Shown here in pieces: positions 12,638-59,981 of a DNA stretch of 63,203 nucleotides. A program made the position numbers and the translations under genes. Below the pieces are notes generated by a model. It did not search any database, was not told the DNA's origin, and was given only the letters and a program-made list of their open reading frames with translations. Source of the DNA: a virus; IMG/VR virus record IMGVR_UViG_3300036781_000090, positions 1-63,203 of that record, one strand, 5' to 3'. How positions within the stretch are numbered: position 1 is the first letter of the stretch; every line of letters starts with the position of its first letter.

Positions 12638-13204
12638 ATGAGCCTGTACGAGTATCAACCAACTACGTCAGAATTGAAATTCTATCGAGACAGACAGCGC
12701 GCGCGGGCTAATATGGAAGCCCGCGCCAAGCCAATTAAGCATACCATCAAGTTTAATCTACCGGAGCGCGGCTCCTTCGATTTCTGGGAAATGCCAAGCC
12801 CATGTCAAGGATTTGAAATCAAAACTATTAATGCGGACCGACAGTTATCCCATGTATTTTATACGATTCGAGAAATCCAGGAAATGGTCTGCCTACTTGG
12901 CCACGTTACCTTGAACGATCTTATTTCAGCCCATCGGCATCAAAACATCTGTAATGCGCGCCATGTTGCGGTGGCCCTTTGTCGGGTTTTTACTAGTCGG
13001 TCAATGCCAGAAATAGGCCGTATGTTTGGTGGAAAGGATCATTCAACTATCCATAATTCTATTACCAAAATGAAACCTGTAGTTGCGGAAATTGAATGGT
13101 CATTCAATGCTCAATCTCTGGAGTACATTGTGCGCTCTGCGCTTGATGTGTGTTGGCGTCTATATCCGCCTGCAAAATATTCGCGACATGGCGCTAGGCC
13201 ATAA
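12638..13204 (+). CDS. DnaA domain IV-like DNA-binding protein
   Basis: 188 residues with no ATPase domain. Residues about 90-147 match DnaA domain IV: VTLNDLISAHR, then ARHVAVALCRVFTSRSMPEIG and FGGKDHSTIHN (130-140), the last being the DnaA-box-binding signature (usual form FGGRDHTTVxH). The N-terminal 85 residues are basic and unrelated. It would bind DnaA boxes without loading helicase, so it could compete with host DnaA or act as an origin-recognition factor for the phage. It lies three bases after the GapR-like gene. Confidence 0.87.
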   Translation: MSLYEYQPTTSELKFYRDRQRARANMEARAKPIKHTIKFNLPERGSFDFWEMPSPCQGFEIKTINADRQLSHVFYTIREIQEMVCLLGHVTLNDLISAHRHQNICNARHVAVALCRVFTSRSMPEIGRMFGGKDHSTIHNSITKMKPVVAEIEWSFNAQSLEYIVRSALDVCWRLYPPAKYSRHGARP

Positions 13205-19280: not shown

Positions 19281-19520
19281 ATGACCCACGAAGACCTAAT
19301 CATCACAAATCACGCCATTGAGCGTTACCAGGAACGTATCGCCTACGTTAGCCGGGAAGACGCTGTTGTGGCCATTCGAATTGGGATAGCTGCCGCCAAG
19401 GATAAGCATCTAGAACCTCATAGGCTGGCCAAGCGGACGTTCTACATTCCCACAGGTGAAATGACCCTCATTGGATCAAACAATCGCATAGTGACCGTCC
19501 TACGGTCTTCTGGCGATTAA
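19281..19520 (+). CDS. Small phage protein (ITNHAIERYQER motif)
   Basis: 79 residues. IITNHAIERYQERI near the start resembles small RelE/DUF4258-like proteins (xxHAxERxxER), which include toxin-like RNases, but the assignment is weak. No antitoxin partner is visible beside it. The reading frame continues without stop after its TAA (see next entry). Confidence 0.6.
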   Translation: MTHEDLIITNHAIERYQERIAYVSREDAVVAIRIGIAAAKDKHLEPHRLAKRTFYIPTGEMTLIGSNNRIVTVLRSSGD

Positions 19521-19529
19521 CCCCCGTCC

Positions 19530-19691
19530 TTGGTCTGCGAGGGCTTTACTCGTCCAGAATGCAAGCCGTGCCTTAGTCCGGACGTTCTGGAGGTGGATTA
19601 TCTTTGCATGGGCATTCCAGAGACTAAGATGCTATGTACCCTGTGCGCCTCCCGCATTTTCACGTGCGAACCCATTGGTTGGGCAGCATAA
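19530..19691 (+). CDS. Possible zinc-binding ORF
   Basis: In the same frame as the upstream gene and separated from it by one TAA and three codons. It encodes CEGFTRPECKPC and later CTLCASRIFTC, six to seven Cys in a zinc-finger-like array. It has only a TTG start candidate and no clear ribosome site, so expression may depend on readthrough or reinitiation. It ends inside the first arm of the structured region. Confidence 0.35.
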   Translation: MVCEGFTRPECKPCLSPDVLEVDYLCMGIPETKMLCTLCASRIFTCEPIGWAA

Positions 19692-20112
19692 GGCGAGCCG
19701 CTGTTTTGTCAGCCCTCTTCCGCCAGCCAGAAAGAGGGTGAATCTGCCGTGAGGTAAGGTTTGGACGGCGGCTCACCTTATGTTCATTGTCCATCCGTCA
19801 ACGAACAAAAAGAAACCGGCCCCTTTCGGGACCGGGCGCTAGCCGAAGCTAGCTCGGGGCGAAGCTCTTTCCATTTCTGGATATTTTCCCGCGCGGGAAA
19901 ACCATTTTCATGGTGGCGCTGGCTATCTAACGCCCGGGTCCAGCGATCTGATGGTTAGATAGCATGGCGTCATGAAACTTGCACGGCTTTCTGGCATTTG
20001 CTAGATTGTAATGGAGGCACCTGGGGTAGCTCCCCGGATGCTGGGCGGGTGCTTGGCTGGTGACTTTCACACCATTCAACCCCGCCCGCCCTCTAACCCG
20101 ATGAAAGCGGGG
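19687..20112. ncRNA. Highly structured noncoding region
   Basis: No gene is evident in 19692-20116, but stems follow one another: 15-base arms 19687-19701/19768-19782 (14 paired) with an inner CCCTCTT/AAGAGGG; 19816-19822/19828-19835; GCTAGC-CGAA-GCTAGC (19838-19853); TTTTCCC-GCGC-GGGAAAA (19884-19901); GCTATCTAAC/GTTAGATAGC (19922-19931/19954-19963), which competes with CGCTGG/CCAGCG (19917-19922/19940-19945); GGGG/CCCC near 20023-20035; and CCCCGC/GCGGGG (20080-20085/20107-20112) that hides the ribosome site of the gene at 20117. It may be a regulatory leader, an RNA gene or a replication origin. Confidence 0.55.
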
Positions 20113-20116
20113 TAAA

Positions 20117-20722
20117 ATGCAGTATCTCTACGTCCGTAATTGGGCGACATTTCAGCACTACAAATATCGCAATCCGCCGTGGATTAAACTCCACCGGGAA
20201 ATTCTCACAAGCACCGATTGGGTTTCCGTAGATGATGCTAGCAAGCTGCTAGCAATCGTCTGCATGATCGTGGGCGCTAAGGATCAGGGCCGCGTGCCTA
20301 ATGATCCGGCGTTCCTTAAGCGGATAGCCTATCTAGATAAGCTTCCAAATCTTAAACCATTGATTGAATGTGGGTTTCTCACAGAAACGCTAGCAGATGC
20401 TAGCAAACGGGAGCAACTGCGTACAAATGCTCCGACAGAGTCCAGAGTCCAGAGTTCAGATACAGATTTAGAAAGTAAGAAAGTTGATGATGATGTTAAG
20501 AAAAACGGAAAGGGGGATAAAAAAACAAAACCCCAGCATCTTCAGCAAACCCGTGACGGCAAGCGGCTGTGGTGCGACCAAGGGACTTCCGAATGGGTAG
20601 CCTATCTGAATGATTTCAAAGCTGCGCACTCAGGGGTAGACCCAAAGATCGAATGGAATGGCGCTGGCGCATGGTTTAATACGGAAGGGGAAATTAGGAT
20701 GGCTAAGGCTGTTCCAAAATAG
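20117..20722 (+). CDS. Replication-initiation-type protein
   Basis: 201 residues. The N-terminal block NWATFQHYKYRNPPWIKLHREILTS...LIECGFL (about 8-88) matches a winged-helix domain found at the start of many alphaproteobacterial phage replication proteins (O-protein/DnaD-like role). The middle is a charged linker (KKNGKGDKKTKPQ), and the end holds DGKRLWCDQGTSEW. Such proteins bind the origin and bring in the host helicase. The start codon is preceded by GCGGGG inside a hairpin, so translation may be controlled by RNA folding. Confidence 0.65.
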   Translation: MQYLYVRNWATFQHYKYRNPPWIKLHREILTSTDWVSVDDASKLLAIVCMIVGAKDQGRVPNDPAFLKRIAYLDKLPNLKPLIECGFLTETLADASKREQLRTNAPTESRVQSSDTDLESKKVDDDVKKNGKGDKKTKPQHLQQTRDGKRLWCDQGTSEWVAYLNDFKAAHSGVDPKIEWNGAGAWFNTEGEIRMAKAVPK

Positions 20723-41849: not shown

Positions 41850-42671
41850 GTGACAAGCCCTGTTGATTTGGTGAACATCAGTTTAGACCAGATCACGGCC
41901 AGAACGAGCGTCACAGGTATCAATCCGGCTTCGCCGCCTAACAACCTTGCGGCTCAGGTGGCGAGCCGGAATTACCAGACCCAAGTAGACGCGATATTCA
42001 GGGCGGCGCATTGGAATAGTGCGCGTCTTCAGGCGAATCTGACCCTTCTCAGGGCGCAGATTGGTACGCCAGAAAACCCGTCTGGCGCTCTGCCGGTGCC
42101 TCCGGTTGGGTTTCTCTACGAGTATCTTTGGCCAAATGATTGTTTGCAGTTCCGGTTTATCATACCGATGCCGAACCTGCCTGCGGTTGGCTCATCTCCG
42201 ATCATGACGAATGTCGGAGTAACAAACCAACCATATATCAACACGGCCATGCCTTATGTCATTGGCATCGGCTTGGACAATGATGGCAATCAAATCAAAA
42301 CCGTTCTGACAAATGCGCCGCGCGCTATTGGTGTTTATACCGGACGAATTGATAACCCAGACCTATGGGATGTTGGTCTACAGAACGCAGTAATCGGAGC
42401 ACTTAGTTCATGGATGTGCATGCCGATCACTGGGGATAAAGTCCTAATGCAGCAAAGGGTAGGGATGGCCGTGGGGCTGATCCAAGCTGCCCGTATGCAG
42501 GATGGAAACGAAGGGGTTACATCAATGGACCATGACCCAGATTTTATGAGAATCCGAAATACGGGCTCCGGTTGGGGGTGGGGTGGTTATGGCGCGGTGG
42601 GCGGATACTATGGTGCGGGGGTTATTGGCGGGTGGAGTTCGTGGGGGGCTCCAGATGGTAATGCGTACTAG
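41850..42671 (+). CDS. Head-completion/tail adaptor protein
   Basis: 273 residues, GTG start after AAGGATGGCCC. N-terminal VDLVNISLDQITARTSVTG and FRAAHWNSARLQANLTLL, and mid-protein VGFLYEYLWPNDCLQFRFI, match the T7 gp11 / P22 gp4-type adaptor family that joins portal to nozzle. The C terminus is very Gly/Trp/Tyr-rich (GSGWGWGGYGAVGGYYGAG). Confidence 0.85.
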   Translation: MTSPVDLVNISLDQITARTSVTGINPASPPNNLAAQVASRNYQTQVDAIFRAAHWNSARLQANLTLLRAQIGTPENPSGALPVPPVGFLYEYLWPNDCLQFRFIIPMPNLPAVGSSPIMTNVGVTNQPYINTAMPYVIGIGLDNDGNQIKTVLTNAPRAIGVYTGRIDNPDLWDVGLQNAVIGALSSWMCMPITGDKVLMQQRVGMAVGLIQAARMQDGNEGVTSMDHDPDFMRIRNTGSGWGWGGYGAVGGYYGAGVIGGWSSWGAPDGNAY

Positions 42672-43336
42672 GCCATGTTAATCTCTTCCATGAAGGCTTT
42701 ACCATCGCGGGTACCTTTCTTGGAGTTACACAGCTTGCAAGCTGGAACGATATTGCTGGCGGCGTTTGAGCCACCGCGAGCAAGGGCTACAAAATGATCC
42801 CTAGTTATCGGATTTCCTTTTTTACCATGGCTACCGCAGTATTTACATTTCCCATCATGCGCAGCCAGTATCGCGCGCCACTCTTCGTTGGTATGATGTT
42901 CGGACAGGCCGAGAAGCCGGGCGCGTCTGCGCGCCGCGTGCACAACTCCCAACTCTTTAGTACGATCAGGGTTATCTGCCTTCCATTTTTTTATCCTGTT
43001 CCTTTCCCTTTCAGGGTTTTTCTCTCTAATTTTTCTCGATCTTTCTCTGCATCTTTCTGGGTTATTTTTAGCCCACAGCGCGGACCGAATTTTGGAGTCT
43101 TCTGGGTTTCTTGCGTAAGCTTCCTTACGTTTCTTTCGTTGCTCCACAATATTGTTATGGTAATATTCTTTTGCTTTGAGCCTCGATCTATCTCGGTTGG
43201 CTGCGCCCCAAGAACGCGCTTTCTCAGCAGCCATTGCCCTTTCCTCTGGAGTGAACTGTTTTCTTGCCCATCTGGCTCTGGCCAATTCATTGTTGCGAAG
43301 ACGTTGCTTTTCATTAAGTTTACCTTTGCGGGGCAT
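42668..43336 (-). CDS. HNH homing endonuclease, antisense in tail operon
   Basis: 222 residues from MPRKGKLNEKQ. A long basic N-terminal region (Arg/Lys/Glu-rich, repeats of the NPERxRxRxRK kind) precedes the HNH core CKYCGSHGKKGNPITRDHFVALARGGSN (about 162-189) and the CKLCNSKKGTRDG end. It lies against the direction of the tail genes and overlaps the adaptor stop by four bases, typical for a mobile free-standing endonuclease. Confidence 0.88.
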   Translation of the reverse strand: MPRKGKLNEKQRLRNNELARARWARKQFTPEERAMAAEKARSWGAANRDRSRLKAKEYYHNNIVEQRKKRKEAYARNPEDSKIRSALWAKNNPERCRERSRKIREKNPERERNRIKKWKADNPDRTKELGVVHAARRRARLLGLSEHHTNEEWRAILAAHDGKCKYCGSHGKKGNPITRDHFVALARGGSNAASNIVPACKLCNSKKGTRDGKAFMEEINMA

Positions 43337-43401
43337 GCAGAATCTCTTTTCCAAAAAACCTCTATAAGAGAACATAAGGATTTTCTGGAAGTGGTCAAGT
43401 C

Positions 43402-55455: not shown

Positions 55456-55507
55456 GGAATAAAGCCGCTGCGGCAACGGCGGGGTCATGGCCCAAGCGGG
55501 GTCGTTA

Positions 55508-57190
55508 ATGAAGCGGGTTCTTGGCTGCCTGATTTTGATGATTGCGCTGGCTATGCCTGCGCATGGGACCGTCAATAATTCTGCGAACAAAACTACCGTT
55601 CCGGGCACCAGTATTGCCACTCAGTTCTCGTTCAATTTTATTGGCGTAGCTTCGGCTTATGTCAAAGTTCTGCTCACCGACAGTTCAGGCACCCAGACCT
55701 TACTCACGCAGGGCAACGGGGCCACGCAGTACCAGATTGTTCTGAACCAGCCCGTACAAGGGGCTATTTGGGGCATCGGCGGAACGGTTACTTACAACCC
55801 CTCTGGAACGCCAATTCCGGTTGGCTCAACACTCACCATCTATCGCGTTCTCCCACTTACGCAGGCGATAAACCTTCAAAATCTCTCGTCCATTGCGGTC
55901 TTAGGTAAAGGGTCCGAAACCGGCCTCGATACTGGAGTTATGCAGGGCCAGCAGATCAATGAGCAGATTTCCCGCGCTATCGTTGCGAACATAGCCAACT
56001 CGGCCCCGCCGCTTCCTCTTCCACCTGCGGCACAGATCGCCAATCAGGGAATTTGCGCGGACGGTACAGGGCTTAATCTAGTCGGCTGCGCTGTTCCTTC
56101 GTCTGGCGTTATTTCCACGGCTATGCAGCCCGTGGTGGATGCTGCCACGCTTGCTCTAGGTCGTCAGGCTTTCGGTCTTGGTGATATGGCCACCCACGGG
56201 ATTGGGTCTGGCCTTCAAGACGATGGTGGACTGTGCGGTTCGCCTAGCTGTGTGCGGGTAAATACTTCATCTCCTACGCAGGTTTCATCCAATCAATCTG
56301 TTGATTCGACTTTCAATCTCCAAAATTACATCACGACTGGCCCACTTACTTTCACACTACCGCGCGCCAATACGTTGTGGTCCGGTTTTGGCTTCTACGT
56401 TGCTAATCTTCCAACCGGCGGAACAGACACATTCGCCATTGATTCCAACGATAAATTTGTCGGCCTGTCGTCTGGTGTATCTCTCCAAATACCTACGGGC
56501 GCTACGGTATTTATTTATACCGACGCTGCGACAGCAGGAACTTGGTATGTAATGAATCTCGGCTTCTCGCCAGCCACAAGTTCAGTAACCCAAATTATAA
56601 CTCCTGGAAGCTCTTCATACAGCACGCCAACGAACTCAACAAAGATCGTTATCAAAGGTTGCGCTGGTGCTGGTGGTGGTGGTGGCTCGGGAAATCCTGG
56701 TGTAAGCGGGGGAGCAGGTGGCACCACTATATTTGGAAGTGTCCAGGTAGGCGGTGGCGCTGGCGGCCCCGGAAACACTAGCACTAGTGGTGGCCCTGGA
56801 GGCACGGGTGGAACGGGCGGAACAGGAACAGCGTCTATTCGCCATGCAGGCTCCAATGGCAGCGGCGGCGGCGGCGCTGCTGGACAGCAGGTCGGCAGCG
56901 GCGGCCACGGAGGCTCATCACCATTTGGTGGACAGGGTGGTGGCGGCCAAAACGGAATTGGCGGAACGGCTGGCAAAAGTTGTTCTGGCGGTGGCGGTGC
57001 AGGTTCTTCTGGTGCTGCGCTCGCCGCTGGCGGCGGTGGCGGTTCGGGAGAGTATTTTGAACTTGTCATTTATAACCCTGCTTCCAGTTATTCATACACT
57101 GTTGGATCAGGTGGTTCGGCAGGAACAGGCACTCTTGCTGGCGGGGCTGGCGGTCCAGGCGAGTTAGATATCGAAGCATTCTCTAACTGA
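55508..57190 (+). CDS. Tail fibre with signal peptide and glycine-rich tip
   Basis: 561 residues from ATG 55508 (an in-frame ATG at 55487 adds seven residues ahead of the signal peptide). Signal peptide MKRVLGCLILMIALAMPAHG; then a T7-type fibre N-terminal domain (GTSIATQFSFNFIGV...GTPIPVGSTLTIYRVLPLTQ, about 35-125) that attaches to the tail. The C-terminal 170 residues are Gly-rich (GGAGG, GGPGGTGGTGG, SGGGGAG), as in polyglycine-sandwich receptor-binding adhesins. It is probably the main host-recognition fibre. Confidence 0.85.
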   Translation: MKRVLGCLILMIALAMPAHGTVNNSANKTTVPGTSIATQFSFNFIGVASAYVKVLLTDSSGTQTLLTQGNGATQYQIVLNQPVQGAIWGIGGTVTYNPSGTPIPVGSTLTIYRVLPLTQAINLQNLSSIAVLGKGSETGLDTGVMQGQQINEQISRAIVANIANSAPPLPLPPAAQIANQGICADGTGLNLVGCAVPSSGVISTAMQPVVDAATLALGRQAFGLGDMATHGIGSGLQDDGGLCGSPSCVRVNTSSPTQVSSNQSVDSTFNLQNYITTGPLTFTLPRANTLWSGFGFYVANLPTGGTDTFAIDSNDKFVGLSSGVSLQIPTGATVFIYTDAATAGTWYVMNLGFSPATSSVTQIITPGSSSYSTPTNSTKIVIKGCAGAGGGGGSGNPGVSGGAGGTTIFGSVQVGGGAGGPGNTSTSGGPGGTGGTGGTGTASIRHAGSNGSGGGGAAGQQVGSGGHGGSSPFGGQGGGGQNGIGGTAGKSCSGGGGAGSSGAALAAGGGGGSGEYFELVIYNPASSYSYTVGSGGSAGTGTLAGGAGGPGELDIEAFSN

Positions 57191-59471: not shown

Positions 59472-59981
59472 ATGCATTCCAGCTTTAAAGCATCTCTAAG
59501 ACTCGTCCTTAAAAGCGAGGGCGGCAATGATGATGACCCTTCTGACCATGGCGGCAGAACTTCTCGCGGTATTACTCAGGCGACATATGATGCATGGTGT
59601 CAGATAGAGAAAAAGCCAAAGGGTGACGTTTGGGAAGCCTCGGATGTGGATGTCTCCACGATCTACCTGGATAACTACTGGAACCCGTGGTGTGATAGTC
59701 TCCCTGTTGGGGTTGATTATATGTTCTTCGATATGTCCGTAAACGGCGGACACCATAGGGCTATTGTTCTGTTGCAAAAAGCTCTTGGTGTTGCCGCCGA
59801 TGGCGTAATGGGGCCGCAGACCAGATTATCAATATCCAAATCTGATCGTCAGGAATTGATAAAGAGATTCACTCAGGTAAAAAGGGATTGGTATATTTCA
59901 CTTCACCAGCCGAAATATACAAAAGGGTGGCTTAACAGGTGCGATAGTGTGCAAAAAGATGCTCTACAGATGATTTCCTGA
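59472..59981 (+). CDS. Endolysin, GH108 family
   Basis: 169 residues. SEGGNDDDPSDHGGRTSRGITQATYD (about 15-40) carries the catalytic Glu in EGGxxxDPxDxGGxTxxGIT, diagnostic of glycoside hydrolase family 108 (N-acetylmuramidase). VNGGHHRAIVLLQKALGVAADGVMGPQT (about 90-117) is the peptidoglycan-binding part that accompanies it. No signal peptide, so it needs a holin. It starts the lysis cassette. Confidence 0.93.
   Translation: MHSSFKASLRLVLKSEGGNDDDPSDHGGRTSRGITQATYDAWCQIEKKPKGDVWEASDVDVSTIYLDNYWNPWCDSLPVGVDYMFFDMSVNGGHHRAIVLLQKALGVAADGVMGPQTRLSISKSDRQELIKRFTQVKRDWYISLHQPKYTKGWLNRCDSVQKDALQMIS

Follow-up and report, generated by a model that had tools for sequence, protein, structure and literature searches.

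A covarying RNA fold, probably a stand-alone RNA gene, beside a podophage replication gene with putative internal iterons

Introduction

What does a gene-free, hairpin-rich stretch lying directly before a phage replication gene encode? The question is raised by a 63,203-base IMG/VR virus record, which was analysed over its whole length and is called the window here. The record comes from a podophage, and the nearest relatives of its portal-type protein (PF12236) are found in Salmonella epsilon15-like podophages, at 34-35% identity. A rhizobial-type host is plausible, since the nearest relatives of its replication gene (rep, 20117-20722, plus strand) in the genome collection belong to Rhizobium, Mesorhizobium and Sinorhizobium. 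The relatives of the phage found via its terminase have no counterpart of rep or of the gap that precedes it.

The initial annotation had offered three identities for this gap, namely a novel structured RNA, a translational switch for replication, or an origin. The first of these stands in an altered form: homologues with compensatory changes exist and no Rfam entry covers them, but the RNA lies on the minus strand, occupies 19806-19951 only and points away from rep. It is probable, in our judgement, that this segment encodes a stand-alone structured RNA of about 146 nt that belongs to a new family. The rightward rep gene would carry its probable origin independently of the RNA, as iterons in its own coding sequence.

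The gap and its hairpins

The gap (19521-20116) contains no convincing gene, its sole open reading frame of at least 60 aa being a 65-aa frame with a TTG start. Over these 596 nt, the minimum free energy is -261.7 kcal/mol on the plus strand (z -5.5) and -244.8 kcal/mol on the minus strand (z -6.3), and on neither strand did any shuffle fold as low. The folding energy of 19687-20111 lies 33.6 kcal under that of its own shuffles, the mean for 90 stretches being -5.7 +/- 8.7; together with the overlapping stretch at 19601, it ranks as the most structured among the 90 sampled 425-nt stretches. The description of a gene-free, hairpin-dense region before rep is thus borne out by the ORF list, the shuffled-fold z-scores and this ranking.

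The stems that had been named are also present in the sequence. A long imperfect stem with 18-nt arms matching at 89% (19687-19704/19765-19782), to which no strand is assigned, is among them. The perfect 18-bp palindrome TTTTCCCGCGCGGGAAAA lies at 19884-19901, and perfect 10-nt arms occupy 19922-19931 and 19954-19963; a pairing that excludes the latter, 19917-19922 with 19940-19945, can be read from the sequence. Nearest to rep, sequence and fold place a set of plus-strand stems at 20021-20111, the last of which (CCCG/CGGG, 20097-20111) does cover the ribosome site of rep. For the outer stems (19687-19782 and 20021-20111), this last one included, 194 loci yielded no homologue. An inverted repeat folds on either strand, and the transcribed strand was therefore invisible at the first reading.

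Homologues and covariation

Searched by blastn against phages, plasmids and the 194 loci of rep or terminase relatives, the gap gave no match, and an exact pattern for the 10-nt arms found nothing in viral contigs. A search of 394 Rhizobiaceae genomes gave a match in one (G045), in two collinear blastn blocks, with a best E-value of 1.9e-7 per genome. In the alignment of the phage with this copy, all 32 proposed pairs are kept, seven of them with a double change. Blastn of the G045 copy then found a copy on the Methylobacterium aquaticum megaplasmid NZ_AP014705.1, a covariance model found one in a second Rhizobiaceae genome (G082), and a refined model found one in G1148, a member of the Hyphomicrobiales outside Rhizobiaceae. 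With the phage, these make up five full-length members (covariance model R2, 63.5 to 150.8 bits). The refined model also found another M. aquaticum plasmid copy (L251, 1501-1641, minus strand), which retains the 3' half, from GAGAGCUUCGCCCCGAG to the terminator, and has lost the 5' P1 part. Three weaker matches (L241, L253 and L254, the last two at 27-29 bits) were inspected, lacked the core motifs and were not counted; L244-L246, L248, L257 and L258 were left out on score alone.

In the five-member alignment (A9), 94.7% of the cells are paired, and pairing falls below 50% when the partner is slid by one column. A double change that keeps the pairing is seen at 13 of 27 pairs, against 4.1 +/- 1.6 in shuffles, and none of 500 shuffles reaches 13. 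These figures come from five full-length sequences in an alignment fitted to the covariance model, and the E-values of the homologues are rough; with an alignment that was not fitted to the model, RNAalifold reports compensatory change at 16 of 43 pairs. The covariation that had been suggested as a check is therefore present, and it shows that 19806-19951 folds as an RNA.

This bears on the reading of the gap as debris, that is, piled-up terminator hairpins and a decayed insertion, without function. The outer stems without homologues would suit such an origin, as would GCTAGCTTCGGCTAGC, a hairpin often met in viral contigs that are unrelated. Against it stand conserved motifs in collinear order, together with compensatory changes among five distant members, and we consider it quite improbable. 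The hairpin GCTAGCTTCGGCTAGC itself occurs in 36 viral stretches (L196-L231), often followed by a T-rich stretch, and appears to be a common terminator-like element independent of the iterons. As a route to relatives of the RNA, the pattern was discarded, the hairpins in the 36 contigs being unrelated.

No Rfam 15 covariance model matched the window or L238 at gathering score, relaxed thresholds gave nothing relevant for the RNA members, and a literature search found no description of the core motif. The phage RNA and its relatives are a family absent from Rfam and previously undescribed.

Strand and architecture of the RNA

Over 19806-19951, the terminator and the loops favour the minus strand. 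The strongest intrinsic terminator is on that strand (19835-19816, then TTTCTTTTTG), and a U-G pair in its stem corresponds to C-A on the plus strand. Four hairpin loops read GAAA, GAAA, UUCG and GAAA on the minus strand, as against UUUC, UUUC, CGAA and UUUC on the plus strand. The minus fold is also the better one for the window and G045 copies. In the five-member alignment, G-U cells outnumber A-C cells by 10 to 6, a mild strand bias; in G082 and G1148, the reverse complement folds slightly better, and the terminator U-tracts of these two are weak.

The RNA gene would be read leftward, away from rep, from near 19950 to the terminator at 19806-19835. Near its 5' end, stem P1 (19917-19945) joins CGCUGG (19940-19945) with CCAGCG (19917-19922) and is paired in all five members, with a U-A to C-G double change in G1148 and a G-C to G-U change in G045. 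GGGCG (19931-19935) and CGCCC (19857-19861) are identical in all five and thus offer no variation for a covariation test; their contact is either a pseudoknot or a portion of a longer closing stem. RNAalifold favours the long closing stem (GGGCGUG..AGC with GCUUCGCCCC) over P1 plus pseudoknot, in columns that hardly vary. Four hairpins follow. Hairpin A, ACCAU(GAAA)AUGGU at 19901-19914, has same-place hairpins in the relatives, with one double change (columns 48/62). The 18-bp palindrome forms hairpin B, UUUUCCC(GCGC)GGGAAAA at 19884-19901, and is replaced pair by pair in relatives by UCCCUGC/GCGGGGA and UCCCGGC/GCCGGGA, with a double change at 5 of 7 pairs. Hairpin C, UCCA(GAAA)UGGA at 19870-19881, has a stem that can be drawn in all five members; CCA/UGG in the phage stands against GGA/UCC in G045, around a GAAA loop common to both. 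Hairpin D, GCUAGC(UUCG)GCUAGC at 19838-19853, corresponds to GACCU/AGGUC, GACCG/CGGUC and GGCCG/CGGCC in relatives. The intrinsic terminator, CCGGUCCC(GAAA)GGGGCCGG-UUUCUUUUUG, was found by a terminator scan; its stem shows double changes and its GAAA loop is present in all five members. The near-invariant motifs of the family are CGCYGG..GGGCGU..AGCCRGYGCC and GAGCUKCGCCCCGAG.

This architecture can be set against the proposal that the stems form a rightward 5' leader of rep and conceal the ribosome site in the manner of a translational switch or riboswitch. The position of the last stem over that site is in line with the proposal, and so is CTGGGG/CCCCGG near 20021, whose G-U pair is specific to the plus strand. 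The supposed riboswitch, however, depended on two exclusive pairings, and only 19917-19922/19940-19945, the P1 stem, is conserved throughout the five members; the alternative arm at 19954-19963 is confined to the window. The closing-stem alternative, a possible second exclusive fold, uses invariant columns. No riboswitch family matched at gathering score, the leader is absent in the relatives that were found, and the terminator and loops favour the minus strand over 19806-19951. For a riboswitch and a translational switch alike, it counts that the RNA is closed by a terminator of its own and that no conserved gene follows on its strand. A leader function for the gap is accordingly judged improbable, although the stems at 20021-20111 may be a leader of rep. 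A 34-codon plus-strand frame (20011-20115) can also be read there, with its stop one base ahead of the start codon of rep; it is possibly a coupled leader peptide, or a product of chance.

The replication gene and its iterons

The rep product matches phrog_26426 (replication protein; PHROGs E 1.8e-12), and its N-terminal domain is predicted with a mean pLDDT above 90 for residues 31-90. The best fold matches are weak and fall on RepA-type plasmid initiators (PDB 4pql, 4pt7, 4pta and 5kbj; Z about 5 (5.5)). The likeness would lie in an N-terminal winged-helix fold, at an E-value of 1.8 that is not significant, and there is no sequence relation. RepA-type plasmid initiators have iterons within the rep gene.

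The hexamer GCTAGC occurs 18 times in the window, six of them between 19838 and 20404. Two pairs lie inside rep on the plus strand, one at 20237 and 20248 (+120/+131 of the gene; 20237-20253), the offsets most often occupied in relatives, and the other at 20389 and 20399 (+272/+282; 20389-20404). They are followed by a degenerate (AGAGAC)n-like tract (20434-20466), and hexamer tracts are found there in L002-L005 and L007-L009 as well. Across 114 rep loci, GCTAGC recurs at +120, +131, +152 and about +270 to +335. In 90 non-redundant rep genes, 240 copies were counted against 21 expected when codons were redrawn for the same proteins; the density is 6.7 per kb as against 0.11 elsewhere, the spacings are mostly 10, 11 and 21, and two reading frames are used. 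Such conservation reflects a constraint at the DNA level, as is expected for initiator binding sites, and the replication origin probably lies inside rep as iterons, in a lambda-O layout. The lambda origin lies within gene O (PMC6022878), and its iterons are bound by O (PMC3985674). A literature search for GCTAGC iterons found no description of them. The fixed-offset sites are present in most rep loci of L002-L195, a set that includes many viral contigs besides genomes such as those of Rhizobium and Massilia.

An origin could also be sought in the gap itself, with the hairpins as structured DNA such as a single-strand origin. Dense inverted repeats do adjoin the replication gene, and another GCTAGC pair lies at 19838-19853. 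This pair was rejected as an iteron; the T/A that flanks the intragenic sites is missing from it, and hairpin D accounts for its presence. The conserved iterons are inside 20117-20722, with GCTAGC sites within the gene in 73 of 90 relatives, and GC skew makes no clear turn at the gap. In the closest rep relatives, an ORF of about 480 aa abuts rep without a gap, and hence the hairpin gap is not needed for an intragenic origin. Covariation in relatives without rep points instead to an RNA fold, and a hairpin origin appears very improbable.

There is a small but real chance that the RNA is tied to the origin in the manner of lambda OOP, as a leftward transcript that opens the origin or acts as antisense on readthrough mRNA into rep. 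The activity of pO is important for the lambda ori to function (PMC3985674). The predicted RNA resembles OOP/pO in being a short leftward transcript with a terminator, placed and oriented just upstream of an O-type gene with internal iterons. Unlike OOP, it is longer, strongly structured and also found without rep, and it has no shown sequence or cII-type antisense relation; the gene upstream stops at 19520, some 285 nt past the terminator, and an OOP-type antisense to its 3' end would thus not be formed. The RNA is conserved where no rep gene is nearby and is absent beside rep in the rep relatives. Both of its ends also lie upstream of the iterons, which the transcript would therefore not cross. 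A further comparison is offered by mycobacterial prophages, where non-coding RNA origins are known and phages without a Rep protein need the RNA to replicate (PMC7157519). The likeness is that of a phage non-coding RNA close to replication functions, whereas the present phage has a Rep gene with iterons, and its RNA is found at other sites that lack rep.

Distribution, neighbours and possible role

Returning to the stand-alone RNA, the family is rare and patchily spread in Hyphomicrobiales, the relatives of the phage copy occurring in bacteria that live in soil or with plants. Strong members number at least two among the 394 Rhizobiaceae genomes and at least one more (G1148) among 397 Hyphomicrobiales genomes; among 40 genomes from its family, G1148 alone is a strong one, and none beyond G045 was found among 385 Alphaproteobacteria. 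These large searches scored 8 candidates per genome, and the counts are therefore lower bounds. Core-motif patterns gave no further viral member in viral contigs.

The RNA is flanked in G045 by NnrS and by a C5 DNA methylase with a DUF4011/MTES_1575 helicase-nuclease, in G082 by a histidine kinase, and in G1148 by tRNA-Gly and tRNA-Tyr. The phage RNA has no neighbour in common with any other member; neighbours are common only to G1148 and the partial plasmid copy. In both the window and G045, the downstream gene is on the other strand. Since neighbours are not common, the RNA is read as stand-alone and trans-acting, and because those of the phage RNA differ from the others', action in trans is the most likely one, as a regulatory RNA or a protein-holding RNA. 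The RNA shares its size, terminator, intergenic position and variable neighbours with stand-alone bacterial sRNAs, including the alphaproteobacterial ones in Rfam; it differs from them in matching no Rfam entry and in having its own invariant GGGCG/CGCCC contact and GAGCUUCGCCCCGAG core.

We infer from the sequence that the RNA is transcribed, with the 5' end given above, acts in trans and is carried as cargo between two phage genes, in a cassette resembling a 'moron'. Its terminator and insertion context fit those of phage morons. The promoter-like site, GTGCAA-16-CTATCT (19957-19985, minus strand), is weak, with 8 of 12 matches and 56 of 500 shuffles equalling it; by this test, no convincing promoter was found upstream of the RNA in the window. 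One may speculate further, at low probability, that it is a mobile regulatory or counter-defence RNA of a new class, exchanged among phages, megaplasmids and chromosomal islands of Hyphomicrobiales. A target search found 11 complementary 11-mers elsewhere in the phage, some overlapping, a number not clearly above chance. A 23-nt stretch at 55532-55554 (plus), near the start of the gene 55487-57190, matches plus-strand 19904-19926 at 87% and is complementary to the minus-strand RNA, with an E-value of 0.11 at which chance is possible.

What the analysis contributes is a clearly covarying RNA family without an Rfam entry, present in phage, megaplasmid and bacterial genomes; it opens to study an RNA that seemingly moves between elements. 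The rep family, in turn, keeps origin-like repeats in its genes, in prophages from Rhizobium through to Massilia, and predictions of origins in many uncultured phages can thereby be put to the test.

A few other features of the record were observed. The single DnaA-box-like site of the window is at 59948, far from the gap, and a protein with a DnaA C-terminal DNA-binding domain (PF08299, E 3.5e-20) is encoded at 12638-13204 (plus). An IS1595-type transposase gene (PF12762 and PF12760; 24695-25621, minus) is probably part of an inserted element, and the large plus-strand frames opposite it look spurious. An HNH/endonuclease VII-type gene (42668-43375, minus) lies on the opposite strand inside the structural module.
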